A stretch of DNA of 45,878 bases, from contig JACPQY010000041.1 of the NCBI GenBank assembly GCA_016190245.1, forward strand, positions 1-45,878, written 5' to 3'. This stretch comes from Nitrospirota bacterium. GTDB lineage: Bacteria > JACPQY01. The number at the start of each line of letters is the position of its first letter. The stretch's first letter is position 1. Positions 28,657 to 35,995 of the stretch are shown here, piece after piece. Below the pieces are notes generated by a model that saw only the letters and a program-made list of their open reading frames with translations, was not told where the DNA came from and made no database searches. Position numbers and translations under genes: made by a program.

Positions 28657-30414
28657 GTGCCTGCGCGGCGAGGCAGGAGCAACGGACTCCTCGCCGCTTC
28701 CGCCCTCATCTCCCCCGCCCTTTTCTTTCTCCTCTCGCTGCCCGGCCTGAGTTGGGTGGACGAGAAGAGCCGCGATGTTCTCGTATGTTTACACCGGGAT
28801 CTCGAACAGTCCCGAGAGGCCACACTGCTCTATCTGGATGAGGAAACCTACCGAGCCTATGGCCTGCCCCTGTCCGCCTGGACCGGGCCGCTGGCGGAGT
28901 TGGTTGATCGGCTGGTCTCCGAAGGCGCGCGCGCCGTGGTTTTCGATTTCCTGATCCTGCCGGCCGATCCTTCAGCGGCTTCCACCCTGCCCCTGGCGCG
29001 GGCGCTCGCGAGGGCATCCGCTCAAGGCGTCCCCGTGATCGTCGCCTCCGAGCTTGCCCCGAACGGCACGATCAAGTACCCCTATCCCCTCGTCCGCCAG
29101 GCGGCCGCTGCGACGGGGTTCTTCAATCTCAGCCCGTCGAGTGACGGCGTGGTCAGGCAGCAGGAAATGCACATCCAAACAGAGGAAGGACCGCTCCTTT
29201 CGCTGGCCTCGGCGGCCTACGCGAGCCTCGCCGGCCTGTCGCCGGAGGACTTCCGCAAGTCCTTTCCGAAAAAGATCCGCCTCAACTTCCGGCCGAGAGG
29301 AGCTTTTCAGTCCGCGTCGATCCTGCGCTTCATGCGGGAGAACGCCGACCCTGCCGTGCGAGGCCGAACCGTGTTTGTGGGCCCTTCTCCGGACTTCCTG
29401 TCGGACATTACCGCGACCCCTTTCAACATCCTCGGAGACGAGCCGGGAGACCTCTACTCCGGCTTGGAGATCCACGCGACCACGTTCACGAACCTCTCGC
29501 AGAAAAGCTTCATACGCGATCTGCCTGGAACCGAGACGGCCGCCCTCCTGATCGTGGGGACGGTGATCCTCTTTTCTCTCGGCGCCCGCCACTCGACGCG
29601 AAGGCTTGGCCTGCTCCTCGGCGGTCTCGGCCTGATCCATGTTTCAGCGGCACTTTTCGCCCTGAGGCACAACACGGGTCTGCCCGTCCTGTCACTGCTT
29701 GTCCCGTGGACGGCGCAGGCAGGGGTTTCGGTTGGGATACGCTTCTGGGTTCTCGACCGGAAGAAACGCGCTCTTGAGAAGGCGTTCGGGCGCTACGTGA
29801 ATCCTCTGCTTCTGGCCTCGATCCTGGAGAACGAAGACGAAATAGACGAGTCGGGGAAAATGGTGGAGGCCTGCATCCTCGTCACCGACCTCAAAGGATT
29901 CACGACCATCTCCGAATGGATGGACCCCCGAGACCTCGTGGCCATGCTGAACGAGTATTTCGAATGGACGACCCAGATCATCCGGGAGGAGGACGGTCTC
30001 GTCCTCAGTTTTCCGGGGGACGCCATCTTGGCCGTGTTCGGTGTGCCGGTTGCCGCGGGCGACTGCGGCGCGTCTGCCGCGCTCAGGGCCGCCCTCCGCC
30101 TGTGGTCGGAGGCCGAACGAAGGAAAGTCAGTATCCACGTCGCGGTCTCAAAGGGCCCTCTCGTGATCGGAAGGATCGGAAGCCGGTTCAAAAGCGACTT
30201 CACGGTCATCGGCGACACCGTCAATACGGCCTTCCGCATCGAAGCCTACTCGGACGACAAAGGTTTGGTACTGACGGAGAATGTGCTACTATCCGCGACG
30301 CGGGAAACAGCCCGGCTGTGTGAGTACATCGAGACCAGCGAGGTCCAGGTAAAAGGGAAAGGGAAGGCCGTGGCGATTGTGAAAGTCACTCCTGTCAAGG
30401 GAGGTGGAACGTGA
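28657..30414 (+). CDS. CHASE2 sensor-class III nucleotide cyclase
   Basis: A 585-residue membrane enzyme starting at GTG 28657. One N-terminal membrane helix (LISPALFFLLSLPG) leads to a periplasmic CHASE2 domain (about 40-285: VLVCLHRDLEQ, AVVFDFLIL, SASILRFMRE). Three membrane helices follow (about 288-365), then a cytoplasmic class III cyclase domain. Catalytic parts are visible: metal Asp in LVTDLKGFT, the second in LSFPGDAILAVFG, and VIGDTVNTAFRIEA with the Asn/Arg pair. The usual purine-selecting lysine (KF.GDA) is Ser here, so cAMP or cGMP cannot be assigned. The stop overlaps the next GTG (GTGA). It probably converts an envelope signal into a cyclic nucleotide. Confidence 0.88.
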   Translation: MPARRGRSNGLLAASALISPALFFLLSLPGLSWVDEKSRDVLVCLHRDLEQSREATLLYLDEETYRAYGLPLSAWTGPLAELVDRLVSEGARAVVFDFLILPADPSAASTLPLARALARASAQGVPVIVASELAPNGTIKYPYPLVRQAAAATGFFNLSPSSDGVVRQQEMHIQTEEGPLLSLASAAYASLAGLSPEDFRKSFPKKIRLNFRPRGAFQSASILRFMRENADPAVRGRTVFVGPSPDFLSDITATPFNILGDEPGDLYSGLEIHATTFTNLSQKSFIRDLPGTETAALLIVGTVILFSLGARHSTRRLGLLLGGLGLIHVSAALFALRHNTGLPVLSLLVPWTAQAGVSVGIRFWVLDRKKRALEKAFGRYVNPLLLASILENEDEIDESGKMVEACILVTDLKGFTTISEWMDPRDLVAMLNEYFEWTTQIIREEDGLVLSFPGDAILAVFGVPVAAGDCGASAALRAALRLWSEAERRKVSIHVAVSKGPLVIGRIGSRFKSDFTVIGDTVNTAFRIEAYSDDKGLVLTENVLLSATRETARLCEYIETSEVQVKGKGKAVAIVKVTPVKGGGT

Positions 30415-31241
30415 GTCCCGGCACAACTGTCATTCTGTTGTGGTTGATCCAATGGAGCAGTCTGATCTCGGGCGACGCAAACCAGCTCACGCTCATGCGG
30501 GCAGGCAGGAAAGTGCCGCTGGAGTTGATGGCTGAGTTGAAAGAGAAAGACACTCTTGAGTTCAAGGGCGGAGGGGCGACGATTTTCTTTTCTCCCGACC
30601 GGTTCGTGACGTTCAAGGGGTCGGGCACGCTGGTCCTTGCCGATCAGAATCGCTGGAAAACGGAGGGCGATCTCAAGGCCGAGGAAGAGAAGGTGGCGGA
30701 CAAGGGTCTGGCCAAAGTGTTCTCCAAGGAAACGGCTACCGCCATAGGCGGAGCCTATTTCCGCTCCGGAGGTCTTCTCACGCGCCTCGCGTACCCCGTC
30801 TCCGTGGCGGTTGAAGAAGTCGCGCCTTCGTTCCGATGGCGGGAAAAGACGGTGGGCAAGGTGATCTTGAACGGGCCGGAGGGCAAGGCGGCCCTGTGGG
30901 AATCACCGGTCGCGGGCACCGGGCTCGACTATCCATCCGGCTCTCCGCCGTTAAGGGGAGGGCAGAGCTACTGCTGGGAACTGACGGATGCCAAGGGCGC
31001 TTCCCTCGAGACGGCATGTTTCCGGGTCGTGGATGACGAGGGCGCGAAGAACCTCGCGGCGATCCGGTATTCAATCGAGACGGCCGATCCCGCCCGGAAG
31101 GAAGGTCTCTGTCGCGTGGGGGTCTCCTACCTGGTGCGCGAGTCGCGCCTGGATGCGGCCCGCGACCTGCTGGAGGCGTGCCCCTCTTCGGGGCAGGTGC
31201 GAACGATCAAGGACTCCGTCGAGAAACGACTCGGGCTTTGA
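30411..31241 (+). CDS. FecR-like exported protein of the CHASE2 operon
   Basis: A 276-residue protein; GTG 30411 overlaps the cyclase stop and has GGGAGG upstream. It starts with an uncleaved or weak signal (TTVILLWLIQWSSLISG). The next 70 residues (RAGRKVPLELMAELKEKDTL, FKGGGATIFFSPDRFVTFKG) look like a FecR-type beta-sandwich. The middle (PSFRWREK, ALWESPVAGTGLDYPSG, PLRGGQSYCWELTDA) resembles the all-beta domain found next to CHASE2 proteins in cyanobacteria, with a TPR-like helical end (ESRLDAARDLLEAC). I infer a periplasmic partner of the CHASE2 sensor. The stop overlaps the TTG of the caspase gene. Confidence 0.65.
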   Translation: MSPGTTVILLWLIQWSSLISGDANQLTLMRAGRKVPLELMAELKEKDTLEFKGGGATIFFSPDRFVTFKGSGTLVLADQNRWKTEGDLKAEEEKVADKGLAKVFSKETATAIGGAYFRSGGLLTRLAYPVSVAVEEVAPSFRWREKTVGKVILNGPEGKAALWESPVAGTGLDYPSGSPPLRGGQSYCWELTDAKGASLETACFRVVDDEGAKNLAAIRYSIETADPARKEGLCRVGVSYLVRESRLDAARDLLEACPSSGQVRTIKDSVEKRLGL

Positions 31242-32992
31242 GCAGGAGCACCGTCGGGCGGCTGTGGCTTGTCGCCGGCGTGTGGCTCGGATTGTTTCCC
31301 GCGTGCCTCCACCTTCGACCCGACTCCACCGGCGCCGTGCGCCCGGTTGACTTGGGGCGCTCGTCCACCCACACGGCCTTCGAGATGGTCTCGGCCCCCA
31401 CGGCCGGAGATCCCGTCTTCCGATACAAACTGCAGCGGTACAACCTGAAGCGCGTCGGCTACGAAGAAGAAGTCGAGCCCAGAATCCAGATGACGACCGC
31501 GGGGTGGATCGTGGCCGGGTCCGCCTGGGCCCTCGCGTTGGGCGGCGGCACCTACCTGCTGGCCGAGGGCACGAGAAACGGGAAGTCGGACCTCAAGTCG
31601 TGGGGTTCGGTCGCTCTTTTCGCGAGCGACGCCGTCCTGGCCGGGACGCTCGCCTTTCGTCTCTTCGGCCACGGAAGGAAGTTGAAACCAAGGTGGGTGT
31701 ACATCGACCATTCCGACCGGAACGTGGTGGACTCCGTGTCCGCCGCCACCCTCGCGCCGGTGGAGGTGCGCTTGAAGGCCCCGTCAGGAGAGCAGGCGTT
31801 CCCCCTGTCCACGGACCTGGAGGGTGTGGTGGAGATTCCCATCCGCGACCTTGAGCCGTACCTTTCCGCCGGAAAGCCCACACCGGCCAAGCTCGTGTAT
31901 CCCCACGACGACAAGACCTACACGAACTTCGCGGTCGGCACGGATGTCGCATCCGGTCCGGCCCTCACATTGCTCAAGCCGAACGAAGAGTTTGTCCAGG
32001 TGGATGACGAGGTGATCGAGATCTCCGCCCTCGCCAACGATCCCGTCGGGCTGCGCCACCTGGTGGTGCTCGTCAACGGCAAGAAGCAGCTCGACTACGA
32101 ACCCAAGGCTGCGCAGCGCGAATATGCTTTCAATGCCGCGGTCAAGTTGAATCCGGGGCTCAACGTGCTGCGCGTGCGCGCCCAGGGGCGGACCGGCTCC
32201 ATCGAGCGAATCGTTCACGTCGAGCGGTCCACGTCGCCCCCGCAGGTCTATGCGGTGTTCGTCGGCATTTCGCAGTACGCCTCGCTGCCGCCCGTCGGCT
32301 TCGCGGCGGAGGACGCGCGCGCCCTTCACGAGCTCACGACCCGGAAAGGCCTGGTCGGATCGGCCAACGCCTTCCTCCTCGTCAATGAGGACGCGACGCT
32401 GGAACGGGTCCGCGAACTCCTGGGCACGGAACTGAAGCAGCGTGCCACCCCCAACGACGACGTCGTGGTCTACTTCGCCGGCCACGGCGCGACCGAGAAG
32501 GATCCCGCGGCCCCGGACGGCGACGGTTTCGCCAAGTACATCGCGCTCCACGATACGCGCCCCGGCTCGCTCTATTCGACGGCACTCCCCATGGAGGAGA
32601 TCCGCACGCTGTTCGAGCGCATCCGGGCCAGGAACGTCCTGTTCCTGCTCGACACCTGCTACTCGGGCGGCGGCGGTCGGACCATTTCCAAGTCGGTGGG
32701 CAAGTTGTCGGACGGCTTCCTGAACCGTCTGGCCGAGGCCAAGGGCCGCGCGGTCATGAGCTCCGCCGGCCCGCTCGAGGTGGCGCGCGAAGACCCGAAA
32801 CTGAAACACGGGATCTACACCTTCACGCTCCTGGAGGCCCTCGACGGCAAAGCGGATCTCAATGATGACCGCGTCCTCACGGTCGAGGAGCTTCACACAT
32901 GGATCTCCGGCCGCGTCCGCGAGTTGACCGATGGGAAGCAAACCCCGACCCTCAGGGGGACGCTCGACCTCACACTCAGACTCGAACCATGA
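31238..32992 (+). CDS. Caspase-like (peptidase C14) lipoprotein
   Basis: A 584-residue protein. TTG 31238 overlaps the FecR-like stop and gives a lipoprotein signal ending LFPAC (Cys23). An uncharacterised N-terminal region with a hydrophobic hairpin (about 85-140) and an Ig-like domain (ALTLLKPNEEFVQVDDEV, LVVLVNGKKQLDY) precede a caspase domain from about 335: YAVFVGISQYASLPP, catalytic His416 in VVYFAGHGA, and catalytic Cys474 in LFLLDTCYSGG, then FTLLEALDG. The dyad is complete, so it should be an active cysteine protease or caspase-fold effector at the membrane. The downstream gene overlaps by ATGA. Confidence 0.87.
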   Translation: MSRSTVGRLWLVAGVWLGLFPACLHLRPDSTGAVRPVDLGRSSTHTAFEMVSAPTAGDPVFRYKLQRYNLKRVGYEEEVEPRIQMTTAGWIVAGSAWALALGGGTYLLAEGTRNGKSDLKSWGSVALFASDAVLAGTLAFRLFGHGRKLKPRWVYIDHSDRNVVDSVSAATLAPVEVRLKAPSGEQAFPLSTDLEGVVEIPIRDLEPYLSAGKPTPAKLVYPHDDKTYTNFAVGTDVASGPALTLLKPNEEFVQVDDEVIEISALANDPVGLRHLVVLVNGKKQLDYEPKAAQREYAFNAAVKLNPGLNVLRVRAQGRTGSIERIVHVERSTSPPQVYAVFVGISQYASLPPVGFAAEDARALHELTTRKGLVGSANAFLLVNEDATLERVRELLGTELKQRATPNDDVVVYFAGHGATEKDPAAPDGDGFAKYIALHDTRPGSLYSTALPMEEIRTLFERIRARNVLFLLDTCYSGGGGRTISKSVGKLSDGFLNRLAEAKGRAVMSSAGPLEVAREDPKLKHGIYTFTLLEALDGKADLNDDRVLTVEELHTWISGRVRELTDGKQTPTLRGTLDLTLRLEP

Positions 32993-34917
32993 CCTGCTCG
33001 CCCTGGTCCCGAGTGACCCGATCCTGCCCGGTCTCGAGTCGAACCCGGCCCGCCGGGCACGGGTTCGGACCTGTCTTGTTGCTCCTCTTCGTCCTTTCGG
33101 GGCCGACGACCACGTCCTGCGGCGCGGCCGCTTTCTTCACGACGGAAGAGGCGGTCAAACCCTCGGAGGCGCTCAATCCCAACGTCACCATCCGGACCGG
33201 CGATCACGTGCACGTGTTTCCCAAGACTTTCGTTGCCAACGCCGAGCTACTGGCTTCGCACGACAGAGCCGATTGGGAGAAGGCCAGGGAGTACTTCAGG
33301 AAGGCGCAACAGGATCCGAGCATCGCCTCCAACTCGGCCGCCTATGGGGAGTTCGCCGCCGATTTCCTGATCACCCTGGACGACCTGAACGAGGTGACGA
33401 CCTCCATACTGAAGCTGTTCGGGATGGAGGGAGCGCCCGCAAGAGACGTCTTCTTCTCAAATCCTCCGTCGTTCGACCTGCCCTCTCCGGCCCCCGCCCG
33501 CCGGCATCCCGCGGGGGACATGTCCCACGGTGTGATCGAGGACATCATGAACATCTACCTCCTCAACACCATCAACAAGAACATCCCAAGGCTCGACGCG
33601 ATCCTCGGAACCGAGGACTTCATGTTCCCCGCCAAGTCCGTCACGCTCGGTTTCTCCGCGGCCGGCGTCACGGCGGCCGGCGAGTTTGTCGGCTATCACA
33701 ACAAGGCCGTGGCGCTCTACCTGCGCGATCTCCTCTACCTCATCGGCATGGCGTCGAACGCGGTCACATCCCTCCGCTTCAATTCCATCAACCTGATCAA
33801 ACAGGCCACCTCGGGCCTGAGCATCACGGCCATGCTGGACAGCTTTTTCGAAGGGAACGGAGGCAAACAGACCACGCGCATCCTCAACAGCGATCCCACT
33901 TTTCTCACCTTCTTTCCCGAGCACCTGTCGCAGGTGAAAGACCTCCTGTTCGCCTACCTCCTCGCATCCGGAGTCAATGAAACCGTGCTCAACGACGACC
34001 CAGGGCACTATGCCGATTCCTTCATGGCTTTCCTGGATGCGGAGGGCTACCTCAACCTTCGGAGCACGGGGGAGGCCACGGCCACAAGCGGCGTCTTCCG
34101 TCTCGGGAAAATTGACCCGACGGCGACGAGCGGAGCCTCCGAGGCCCTTCGGCTGCACCTGGCCGATCCCGCGCGCCACCCCTACGTCAACGCGGCTGAG
34201 ATCTTCGGACCGCTCCTCGGCAACCTGTCCGCCGGTTTCAACTCGATCGTATCGCAAGCCGTGGTCTCGTCGCTGACCTCGGGGGCGGGGGGCAGCTCGG
34301 AAAACACGGAGATCGCCTTGAACGGCCTCCTGGATACGGTCGCGTCTCTCGTCGAATTCGTCTCCGGCGTCCAGCTCGGCGTCAACAAGAGTGTCTTCTA
34401 TGTGGACCTCCACCAGCTTTTCAGGTCCATCGAGAATCTGAGGAACTATCTCCCCGCGTGGACACGACCGCCGGGCTCCAACGAAGGGTATTTTTTCGAA
34501 GAGTTCGAGTGCGGCCTCAAGGCTCCGAGCAGCGCGCTCAAGATCGCGTGCCCGCCCGGCGAACCTCTAACCGATTCCAGCCATTTCTCGGAAGTGCCGT
34601 TGGATCAACTGGGCGTCGGAACCCTGGAAATCGGCGGCCTGCGCACCGACGATCCGGACTTCGCGACGCTGTGGGGCGAGGGCGCGCCGAAGGATGGGAA
34701 GAAATCTCCCTACGGCCACTTCCTCTGGCAGGACCCCGGGTTCGGTGCGGCCGTCTGGGTGGACCCCACCGCGCTGGACTGGAGTCGGTTCGGAGTGACT
34801 CTTCCACCTGGGACCACCGTGCCCTGCGGCGTGAAGCCGGAAATGCAGCAGCTTCGCGGCCCCTCCGGGGTGTGCTTGATGAATCTCCTGGTGGACGTCC
34901 TTGCCGTCGGCAGTTGA
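32989..34917 (+). CDS. Large unknown exported protein of the caspase operon
   Basis: A 642-residue protein whose ATG overlaps the caspase stop (ATGA). A signal-type segment lies at about 25-45 (GFGPVLLLLFVLSG, then TTTSCGAAAFF, possibly lipidated although the lipobox is poor). The mature part is largely helical (KAREYFRKAQQDP, LLNTINKNIPRLDAILG, GYHNKAVALYLRDLLYLIGM), with a glycine/Ser-rich stretch GAGGSSENT and two cysteine pairs near the C-terminus (ECGLKAP...KIACPPG, PCGVKP...GVCLMN). I recognise no family. Tight coupling to the caspase suggests a substrate, inhibitor or membrane partner. Confidence 0.75.
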   Translation: MTCSPWSRVTRSCPVSSRTRPAGHGFGPVLLLLFVLSGPTTTSCGAAAFFTTEEAVKPSEALNPNVTIRTGDHVHVFPKTFVANAELLASHDRADWEKAREYFRKAQQDPSIASNSAAYGEFAADFLITLDDLNEVTTSILKLFGMEGAPARDVFFSNPPSFDLPSPAPARRHPAGDMSHGVIEDIMNIYLLNTINKNIPRLDAILGTEDFMFPAKSVTLGFSAAGVTAAGEFVGYHNKAVALYLRDLLYLIGMASNAVTSLRFNSINLIKQATSGLSITAMLDSFFEGNGGKQTTRILNSDPTFLTFFPEHLSQVKDLLFAYLLASGVNETVLNDDPGHYADSFMAFLDAEGYLNLRSTGEATATSGVFRLGKIDPTATSGASEALRLHLADPARHPYVNAAEIFGPLLGNLSAGFNSIVSQAVVSSLTSGAGGSSENTEIALNGLLDTVASLVEFVSGVQLGVNKSVFYVDLHQLFRSIENLRNYLPAWTRPPGSNEGYFFEEFECGLKAPSSALKIACPPGEPLTDSSHFSEVPLDQLGVGTLEIGGLRTDDPDFATLWGEGAPKDGKKSPYGHFLWQDPGFGAAVWVDPTALDWSRFGVTLPPGTTVPCGVKPEMQQLRGPSGVCLMNLLVDVLAVGS

Positions 34918-34963
34918 ACATCCGCGTTGAAAACAACTCGCGCCCGTGAGAAAAGCCCTGGCG

Positions 34964-35995
34964 ATGAGGCGCGGAAGATGGGCAATTGCTGTGGCCCTCG
35001 TGCTCGGAGGACTGCCGGCCTGCGAGGGAGAGCGCCGAGATGAGACCACCGGCTGCCTGTGCCGCGGCTGGACTGATCACGCGGCGAATCCCCTGATCCA
35101 GCCGCCTCCCGGCGAACCCATTGTCGCCGATCCGACAGTCATCCTTCCGGAAGCATCCCCCGATGGTCATTGGCACCTCTTTGCCCACAGCCTCCTCGGC
35201 ATTCGCCACTACGTTTCGGAAGATGGCGTCGTCTGGGAGGCCGCGCCGGGCCGGCAACCTCTGTTCGCGGGAGCACGACCCTACGTCTATCGTGAGGCTG
35301 GAACCTACTACCTTCTCTATGAACTGTTCAGTGGCGTGACTCTCGGATCGTCCACCCTCAACATGCGCTCCTCGACCGATCTCAGGCAGTTCGGCGAAGC
35401 CACCACCATCCTCCAGCCGACCCTCGACTGGGAGCGCGGCTTCCAGTCCACCAACGGCAATCCATTTCTAATGAAGGTGGGAGACGAGTACTGGCTCTAC
35501 TACAGCGCGGACGGCGTGCTCCAGCCAGACACCGGCTTCTCCGAGCCCAAACACATCGGGCTCGCGCGCGGATCGGCCGTGACGGGCCCGTACGAGAAAC
35601 TCGACCGGCCGCTGCTGGGACCTTCGGCGACCGACCCTTTCGCCAATCAGGCAGCGGGCTCGATCAAAGTGTTCGAGGAGAAATGGCGCGGCTTGTGGCT
35701 CGCGTTCAACAACGGCATCTACGTGGACGCAGAGGGCCACTCGCGTTCCGCCATCCGTCTGATGACTTCATCGGACGGTATCGAATGGACCCCCCTTTGC
35801 ACCGCCCCTGTCGTGAGCCCCGAGGGGGAAGGCTGGAAGCGGGCCTTTGTGTATGCGTTCGACGTGAAGCGCGTGGGGCGCGAGCTGTGGATGTACTACA
35901 ACGCGCGCGACGGCTGGCGCGAAGGGGTGGAACGGATCGGTCTGGCGACCCATGGGGCGCCGGACGATCTGTCGGACCTTGACGCCTGCCCGTAG
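34964..35995 (+). CDS. Five-bladed beta-propeller lipoprotein, GH43/GH130-like
   Basis: A 343-residue lipoprotein with lipobox GLPAC (Cys20). The fold is suggested by a repeated pattern of glycoside-hydrolase propellers: VADPTVILPE, GHWHLFAHSLLGI, RPYVYREAGTYYLLYE, NPFLMKVGDEYWLYYSADG, HIGLARGSAVTGPYEKL and RELWMYYNARDG. Families GH43, GH62 and GH130 share this layout. Acidic residues are present at plausible sites (the Asp of VADP, the Glu of LYE), but I cannot assign a catalytic triad, so this may be a sugar-binding or uncharacterised hydrolase. GTG 34946 would add six residues; neither start has a good ribosome site. It lies 46 nt after the caspase-operon gene and may be its last member. 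Confidence 0.72.
   Translation: MRRGRWAIAVALVLGGLPACEGERRDETTGCLCRGWTDHAANPLIQPPPGEPIVADPTVILPEASPDGHWHLFAHSLLGIRHYVSEDGVVWEAAPGRQPLFAGARPYVYREAGTYYLLYELFSGVTLGSSTLNMRSSTDLRQFGEATTILQPTLDWERGFQSTNGNPFLMKVGDEYWLYYSADGVLQPDTGFSEPKHIGLARGSAVTGPYEKLDRPLLGPSATDPFANQAAGSIKVFEEKWRGLWLAFNNGIYVDAEGHSRSAIRLMTSSDGIEWTPLCTAPVVSPEGEGWKRAFVYAFDVKRVGRELWMYYNARDGWREGVERIGLATHGAPDDLSDLDACP

Follow-up and report, generated by a model that had tools for sequence, protein, structure and literature searches.

CHASE2 receptors have been described beside periplasmic partners and beside caspases. MtxA is an exported magnetobacterial protein of Magnetospirillum gryphiswaldense, and its gene adjoins that of a CHASE2 adenylate cyclase (PMC4439547). 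In the BiofilmReg operon of Burkholderia contaminans, a CHASE2 receptor is co-encoded with a periplasmic LysM-FecR partner and an unknown protein (PMC5192318). The cyanobacterium Trichodesmium erythraeum has a caspase-CHASE2 fusion in which the receptor is tied to the caspase (PMC3501461, PMC2853523), a Nostoc cluster is composed of WD40, CHASE2, and DUF928 genes (PMC5587647), and EACC2 caspases can carry CHASE2 (PMC8195603). Since the cyanobacterial fusions and CHASE2 near WD40 genes are already published, the general idea of a CHASE2-caspase connection is not wholly new. Here, an operon of four genes is described from contig JACPQY010000041.1 of assembly GCA_016190245.1, deposited as Nitrospirota bacterium (GTDB lineage Bacteria; JACPQY01). 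The whole stretch analysed, 45,878 nucleotides, is called the window. The operon encodes a CHASE2 receptor with a nucleotide cyclase domain (gene 1), a small predicted secreted protein (gene 2), a caspase homologue (gene 3), and a predicted lipoprotein (gene 4). We propose, giving it slightly less than an even chance, that they form an envelope-sensing module in which the caspase, located in the periplasm, acts on the input to the CHASE2 receptor.

The comparison with MtxA concerns gene 2. A low-confidence model gives it the same order of a beta region, an immunoglobulin (Ig)-like part, and a tetratricopeptide repeat (TPR) part, and its gene likewise stands beside that of a CHASE2 cyclase. MtxA is a precedent for a periplasmic Ig/TPR protein adjoining a CHASE2 cyclase, which speaks for the proposal. 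Unlike the window operon, no caspase is mentioned for MtxA in the available portion of that account (PMC4439547). BiofilmReg differs in its histidine kinase output and in having no caspase, and gene 2 is not FecR by sequence. The Trichodesmium fusion is a single polypeptide with a caspase predicted to be cytoplasmic, whereas the window has separate genes, a predicted exported caspase, and a cyclase output. In the Nostoc cluster, CHASE2 adjoins WD40 genes and a gene for a small partner, an arrangement like that of the WD40-caspase loci of Nitrospirota discussed below. However, no Peptidase_C14 gene was reported for it, and gene 2 has no match to DUF928 in Pfam. The caspase domain of gene 3 is similar to those of EACC1/EACC2 systems, scoring 99.6 bits against the EACC1-type caspase model of NCBIfam (NF047832; PMC8195603), but this falls short of the curated 140 bits, neither an EACC nor a TRADD-N component was found, and the window caspase is predicted to be exported. 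In the open-access papers searched (subscription papers not covered), CHASE2, caspase, and 'adenylate cyclase' did not occur together in any paper, and the wordings tried for a caspase that is periplasmic or a lipoprotein were likewise absent.

The window genome is a 3.29-Mb assembly, 85% complete, from an isolated lineage. Only one genome of the same family (G001, hereafter the sister genome) was drawn for comparison, and the remaining genomes are related at the domain level only. The three overlaps between consecutive genes that the initial annotation had pointed out are present (Table 1). The sister genome, which represents a second genus, has the same four genes in unchanged order, with a 4-nt overlap at all three junctions. 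The arrangement is therefore not due to chance. Protein identities between the two genomes are 70% for gene 1, 70% for gene 2, 79% for gene 3, and 66% for gene 4, and the corresponding dN/dS ratios of 0.19, 0.13, 0.11, and 0.18 indicate purifying selection. The genes bordering the operon on both sides are dissimilar in the two genomes. Therefore, the operon consists of just these four genes.

Table 1. Positions of the genes and junctions of the operon in the window.
Feature	Coordinates	Strand	Remarks
Gene 1, CHASE2 + class III nucleotide cyclase	28657..30414	+	585 aa, GTG start; Pfam
Gene 2, predicted secreted protein	30411..31241	+	276 aa; no Pfam/NCBIfam match
Gene 3, caspase homologue (Peptidase_C14)	31238..32992	+	584 aa, TTG start; Pfam and dyad
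Gene 4, predicted lipoprotein	32989..34917	+	642 aa; no known family
GTGA stop/start overlap, genes 1/2	30411..30414	+	4 nt; ATGA in the sister genome
TTGA stop/start overlap, genes 2/3	31238..31241	+	Identical in the sister genome, including the TTG caspase start
ATGA stop/start overlap, genes 3/4	32989..32992	+	Identical in the sister genome

Gene 1 is a CHASE2 cyclase, as annotated. Both Pfam domains are over their cut-offs, CHASE2 with 97.2 bits (cut-off 26.3; residues 23–305) and Guanylate_cyc with 61.9 bits (cut-off 21.9; class III cyclase residues 403–571). A hydrophobic segment precedes CHASE2 (10–34) and at least two follow it (292–310 and 317–335), before the cyclase. Both domains are thus carried by one membrane protein, as in a CHASE2 receptor nucleotide cyclase. 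In class III cyclases, two aspartates bind the metals, an asparagine and an arginine act on the transition state, and a lysine selects the base. The metal-binding Asp411 and Asp455, together with Thr516, Asn523, and Arg527, are invariant in all of the 26 aligned CHASE2 cyclases. The base-selecting lysine is present in 24 of them, and only the window and sister proteins have serine (Ser451). By the residues of a canonical adenylate cyclase, gene 1 therefore lacks the lysine and retains Thr516. The formation of a cyclic nucleotide, as first annotated, is likely from the conserved residues but unproved, and the identity of the product is uncertain because of the serine.

Gene 3 scored 49.6 bits against Peptidase_C14 (cut-off 21.4) over residues 338–575. 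Numbered from the TTG codon, its His-Cys dyad lies in the GHG motif at 415–417 (His416) and the DTCYSG motif at 472–477 (Cys474), exactly where it had been placed; a C14 domain with this dyad is a feature of orthocaspases. Both residues are retained in the sister genome, and conservation within the protein peaks in the C14 domain (82% identity). An Ig-like region (about 241–334) stands upstream of it. At the N-terminus, a signal peptide is followed by the conserved Cys23, a candidate lipobox residue. As had been suggested, the caspase is therefore probably lipid-anchored. Hydropathy also marks a marginal hydrophobic hairpin (91–109/125–143). The catalytic domain is periplasmic if these segments make either no or two membrane passes, so that this location is probable.

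The caspase tree offers a clue to what gene 3 works with. Apart from an unlinked paralogue in its own genome, the closest caspases outside the family are L161 and L170. The set joining the window caspase with these, the paralogue, and one long branch has 96% support. L161 and L170 are 35–36% identical to the window caspase across its Ig and C14 regions (241–574). They are Nitrospirota lipoprotein WD40-caspases whose genes follow that of a CHASE2 protein ending in a sigma-54 activator domain, with a 4-nt overlap between the two genes in L170. A DUF4384 gene lies upstream in both (DUF4384-LPP20 in L170). From its domains, the CHASE2-sigma-54 activator is expected to make no cyclic nucleotide. 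As judged from the domain content, a CHASE2 receptor and a predicted exported caspase are constant between these loci and the window, and the cytoplasmic output changes. Since CHASE2 and the caspase stay while the output varies, the caspase is more likely to be on the input side. Because its nearest relatives adjoin CHASE2 proteins with a sigma-54 activator in place of the cyclase, it appears to track the periplasmic sensor rather than a cyclic nucleotide.

The linkage recurs in other genomes. In 10 of 118 genomes from the phylum of genome G262, taken as Nitrospirota, a CHASE2 gene and a C14 gene are no more than 5 kb apart (10 pairs against 1.22 expected from the gene densities). Widening the distance to 10 kb gives 17 pairs (2.26 expected), 15 of them on the same strand. 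The linked genomes fall in five families. The number of independent events is therefore below ten, and significance is overstated by the Poisson values. When named genomes were scanned with WD40-type caspases as queries, 80 caspase loci were obtained, and CHASE2 is within 10 kb of nine (about 0.5 expected). These nine belong to Nitrospirota, Thermodesulfobacteriota/'Deltaproteobacteria', and proteobacteria; one is on the opposite strand, 7 kb off. The CHASE2-linked caspases are spread over several clades of the tree and usually have Sec or lipoprotein signals. Nearly all retain the dyad, in line with the expected conservation in relatives. The window and the sister operon agree with this pattern, the caspase gene adjoining the CHASE2 gene (with gene 2 between) and encoding a dyad-bearing, predicted exported protein. 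Scans of genome contigs with two window-type caspases and of viral contigs for such caspases gave no match. In a survey of 111 diverse caspase loci (L042–L160), mostly from unrelated genomes, one of the two CHASE2-linked loci (L141) is in G262. It is an overlapping run of FecR-TPR, DUF4384, WD40-caspase, CHASE2-cyclase, TPR-CHAT, and WD40-caspase genes. A pair in another genome (L107, G323), 6 kb apart with intervening genes, was not regarded as a module. The initial annotation had suspected a wider sensor-protease module. This is supported, as the linkage is enriched in Nitrospirota, is found in named Thermodesulfobacteriota and proteobacteria, and occurs once with FecR, DUF4384, and CHAT genes; on the other hand, it is patchy.

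The proposed envelope-sensing module would work as follows. Gene 1 would be an inner-membrane receptor whose periplasmic CHASE2 domain directs the cytoplasmic class III cyclase, the product being probably cAMP-like. The N-terminal export signals imply that the products of genes 2, 3, and 4 should sit in the envelope, respectively as a small partner of several domains with an MtxA-like layout, as a caspase that a lipid probably anchors, and as a mostly helical lipoprotein. When the envelope is damaged or an external cue arrives, the periplasmic caspase may cleave or bind either a signal protein or one of its partners, for example the product of gene 2 or gene 4. This action would set the state of the CHASE2 receptor and thereby the output of the cyclase. 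The signal could then be read by cytoplasmic regulators that bind cyclic nucleoside monophosphate (cNMP), some of at least 12 candidate domains in the genome. The genome has 12 matches to cNMP-binding domains and 4 class III cyclases. What the data show is the order, coupling, domains, and conservation of the genes, the dyad, and the return of CHASE2-caspase linkage in other lineages with differing outputs; where the proteins lie, the proteolysis, the direction of the signal, and the physiological role are inferred. A broader claim, possible but doubtful, is that an undescribed class of receptors exists in which an envelope caspase and small periplasmic partners proteolytically gate CHASE2 receptors with interchangeable outputs (cyclase or sigma-54 activator).

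Most discussion of bacterial caspases treats them as death proteases, and we know of no established ligand for CHASE2 receptors. The recurrent linkage of predicted exported, dyad-bearing caspases with CHASE2 of differing outputs leads to one testable hypothesis for both questions, namely that the caspase creates or removes the signal that CHASE2 reads. As related operons of a sensor and a caspase occur in unrelated bacteria, the caspases there may serve envelope signalling and not cell death alone. If receptors are indeed gated in this way, such caspases would be cell-surface sensors rather than executioners.

Several observations weigh against this proposal. CHASE2 is near only 2 of the 111 diverse caspase loci, about the expected number, so that the linkage is patchy and not general across bacteria. 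The clade of the window caspase also contains the unlinked paralogue. In the CHASE2 tree, which has long branches, the window domain does not group with the CHASE2 domains of the caspase relatives. Therefore, the pairing may have arisen separately, and common descent is not shown. Genes 2 and 4 lack relatives outside the window and sister genomes. The lipobox of gene 3 is imperfect (FPAC in the window and ALSC in the sister genome), and if exactly one of its two weak hydrophobic segments were a true transmembrane helix, the caspase would be cytoplasmic. Finally, Ser451 casts doubt on the cyclase.

An unlikely alternative, though the best surviving one, takes the caspase as an output in the envelope. 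The CHASE2 cyclase would control, through gene expression, the amount or use of the caspase and lipoproteins, and the caspase would remodel surface proteins or digest extracellular protein, the operon being a regulator grouped with its targets. Secreted caspase-fold proteases such as gingipains exist, secreted WD40 and lipoprotein caspases are common among the linked loci, and translational coupling fixes the stoichiometry. Yet regulators are not usually made in constant proportion to their own targets, three proteins with export signals and one receptor better match a complex, and no substrate is known.

It is rather improbable that the second messenger of the cyclase triggers the caspase and leads to cell death or arrest, in response to stress or phage in a Pycsar-like manner. 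Caspases are effectors of conflict systems (PMC8195603), and PADLOC returned domain matches to PycC (8.5e-16) and caspase (6.8e-14), but these matches are generic and at the domain level only. No cNMP-binding domain was detected in genes 2–4 with Pfam, NCBIfam, or PADLOC, so the adjacent sensor of a Pycsar system is missing. By eye, the neighbours of the operon are ordinary chromosomal genes (NAD kinase-like and RecN-like) rather than a defence island. A caspase assay with and without cyclic nucleotide, as initially proposed, presupposes a direct link between the two. This link is unlikely because the membrane is predicted to separate the caspase from the cyclase, and because the related caspases have as partners CHASE2-sigma-54 activators, which make no nucleotide. 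Least probable of all is a non-proteolytic caspase acting as a scaffold within the receptor complex: the N-terminal regions, the Ig-like one among them, could serve to bind partners and pseudo-orthocaspases exist (PMC6426788), but the dyad is retained in the sister genome and in nearly all linked caspases, and C14 is better conserved than the rest of the protein.

Neither Pfam (up to E 10) nor NCBIfam returned a match for genes 2 and 4. FecR (PF04773), to which gene 2 had been likened, was thus rejected on sequence; alignment with nine FecR proteins by hhalign gave a probability of 0.1%, a weak test with a query profile of two sequences. Neither gene matches DUF4384 in Pfam, unlike the linked Nitrospirota loci with a DUF4384 partner. 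Gene 2 is predicted to have an N-terminal hydrophobic stretch, a beta-rich region (27–94), a likely Ig-like domain (116–205), and a helical TPR-like C-terminus (209–273). Its structure model, of low confidence (pLDDT 46), contains beta strands and probably a second beta domain, and its C-terminus is helical. The best Foldseek match of the model is 4z29, the C-terminal Ig-TPR part of MtxA, at a non-significant E value of 0.14. The VIA rows for gene 2 cover the helical end only, with Z values within the range of common helical arrangements. No sequence match to MtxA was found. The layout, taken for gene 2 from the low-confidence model, the size, and the gene context agree with MtxA, so the resemblance may serve as a weak lead rather than as membership. 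Gene 4 is mostly helical, with an N-terminal stretch resembling a lipoprotein signal and a conserved Cys44. As first stated, it is of no known family, with no match in Pfam, NCBIfam, or PDB. Among 241 genomes, it was found only in the window and sister genomes, plus one weak match of 92 aa in G015 (E 0.004). Its structure model was unusable (pLDDT 32).

A fifth gene (34946–35995), 28 bp downstream of gene 4, encodes a GH43-like predicted lipoprotein. By inspection of the sequence, a dipeptidase-like lipoprotein gene takes its place in the sister genome. Prediction of promoters and terminators gave no excess above shuffles. The second caspase operon of the window genome, which holds the unlinked paralogue (L040, 4802–14137, G000:C53), encodes an ECF sigma factor, a TPR-CHAT protein, the caspase, and a PKD/YCF48-type lipoprotein-like giant. 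The caspase gene overlaps the CHAT gene by 4 nt, and its product is 40% identical to the window caspase. In the diverse survey, 26 of the 111 caspase loci have a DUF4384 gene nearby, so that this family neighbours caspases far more often than CHASE2 does. In G262, at least six caspase matches, two of them nearly identical WD40-caspases, lie in about 35 kb among CHAT, DUF4384, and FecR genes (L141 and L142; G262:C1, 940000–979999). In G029, the gene of a class III cyclase that lacks CHASE2 is followed after 54 bp, on the same strand, by a gene for a 299-aa caspase (L100, 9526–11708, G029:C42). Finally, the contig of the sister operon also carries a CRISPR-like array of about 30 copies of GTTTCAATCCTCGCCCGACCCGAAGGCCGGGCGCAAT, with a spacing of mostly 71–75 nt (L037, 17754–20000; G001:C53, about 33.2–35.4 kb).

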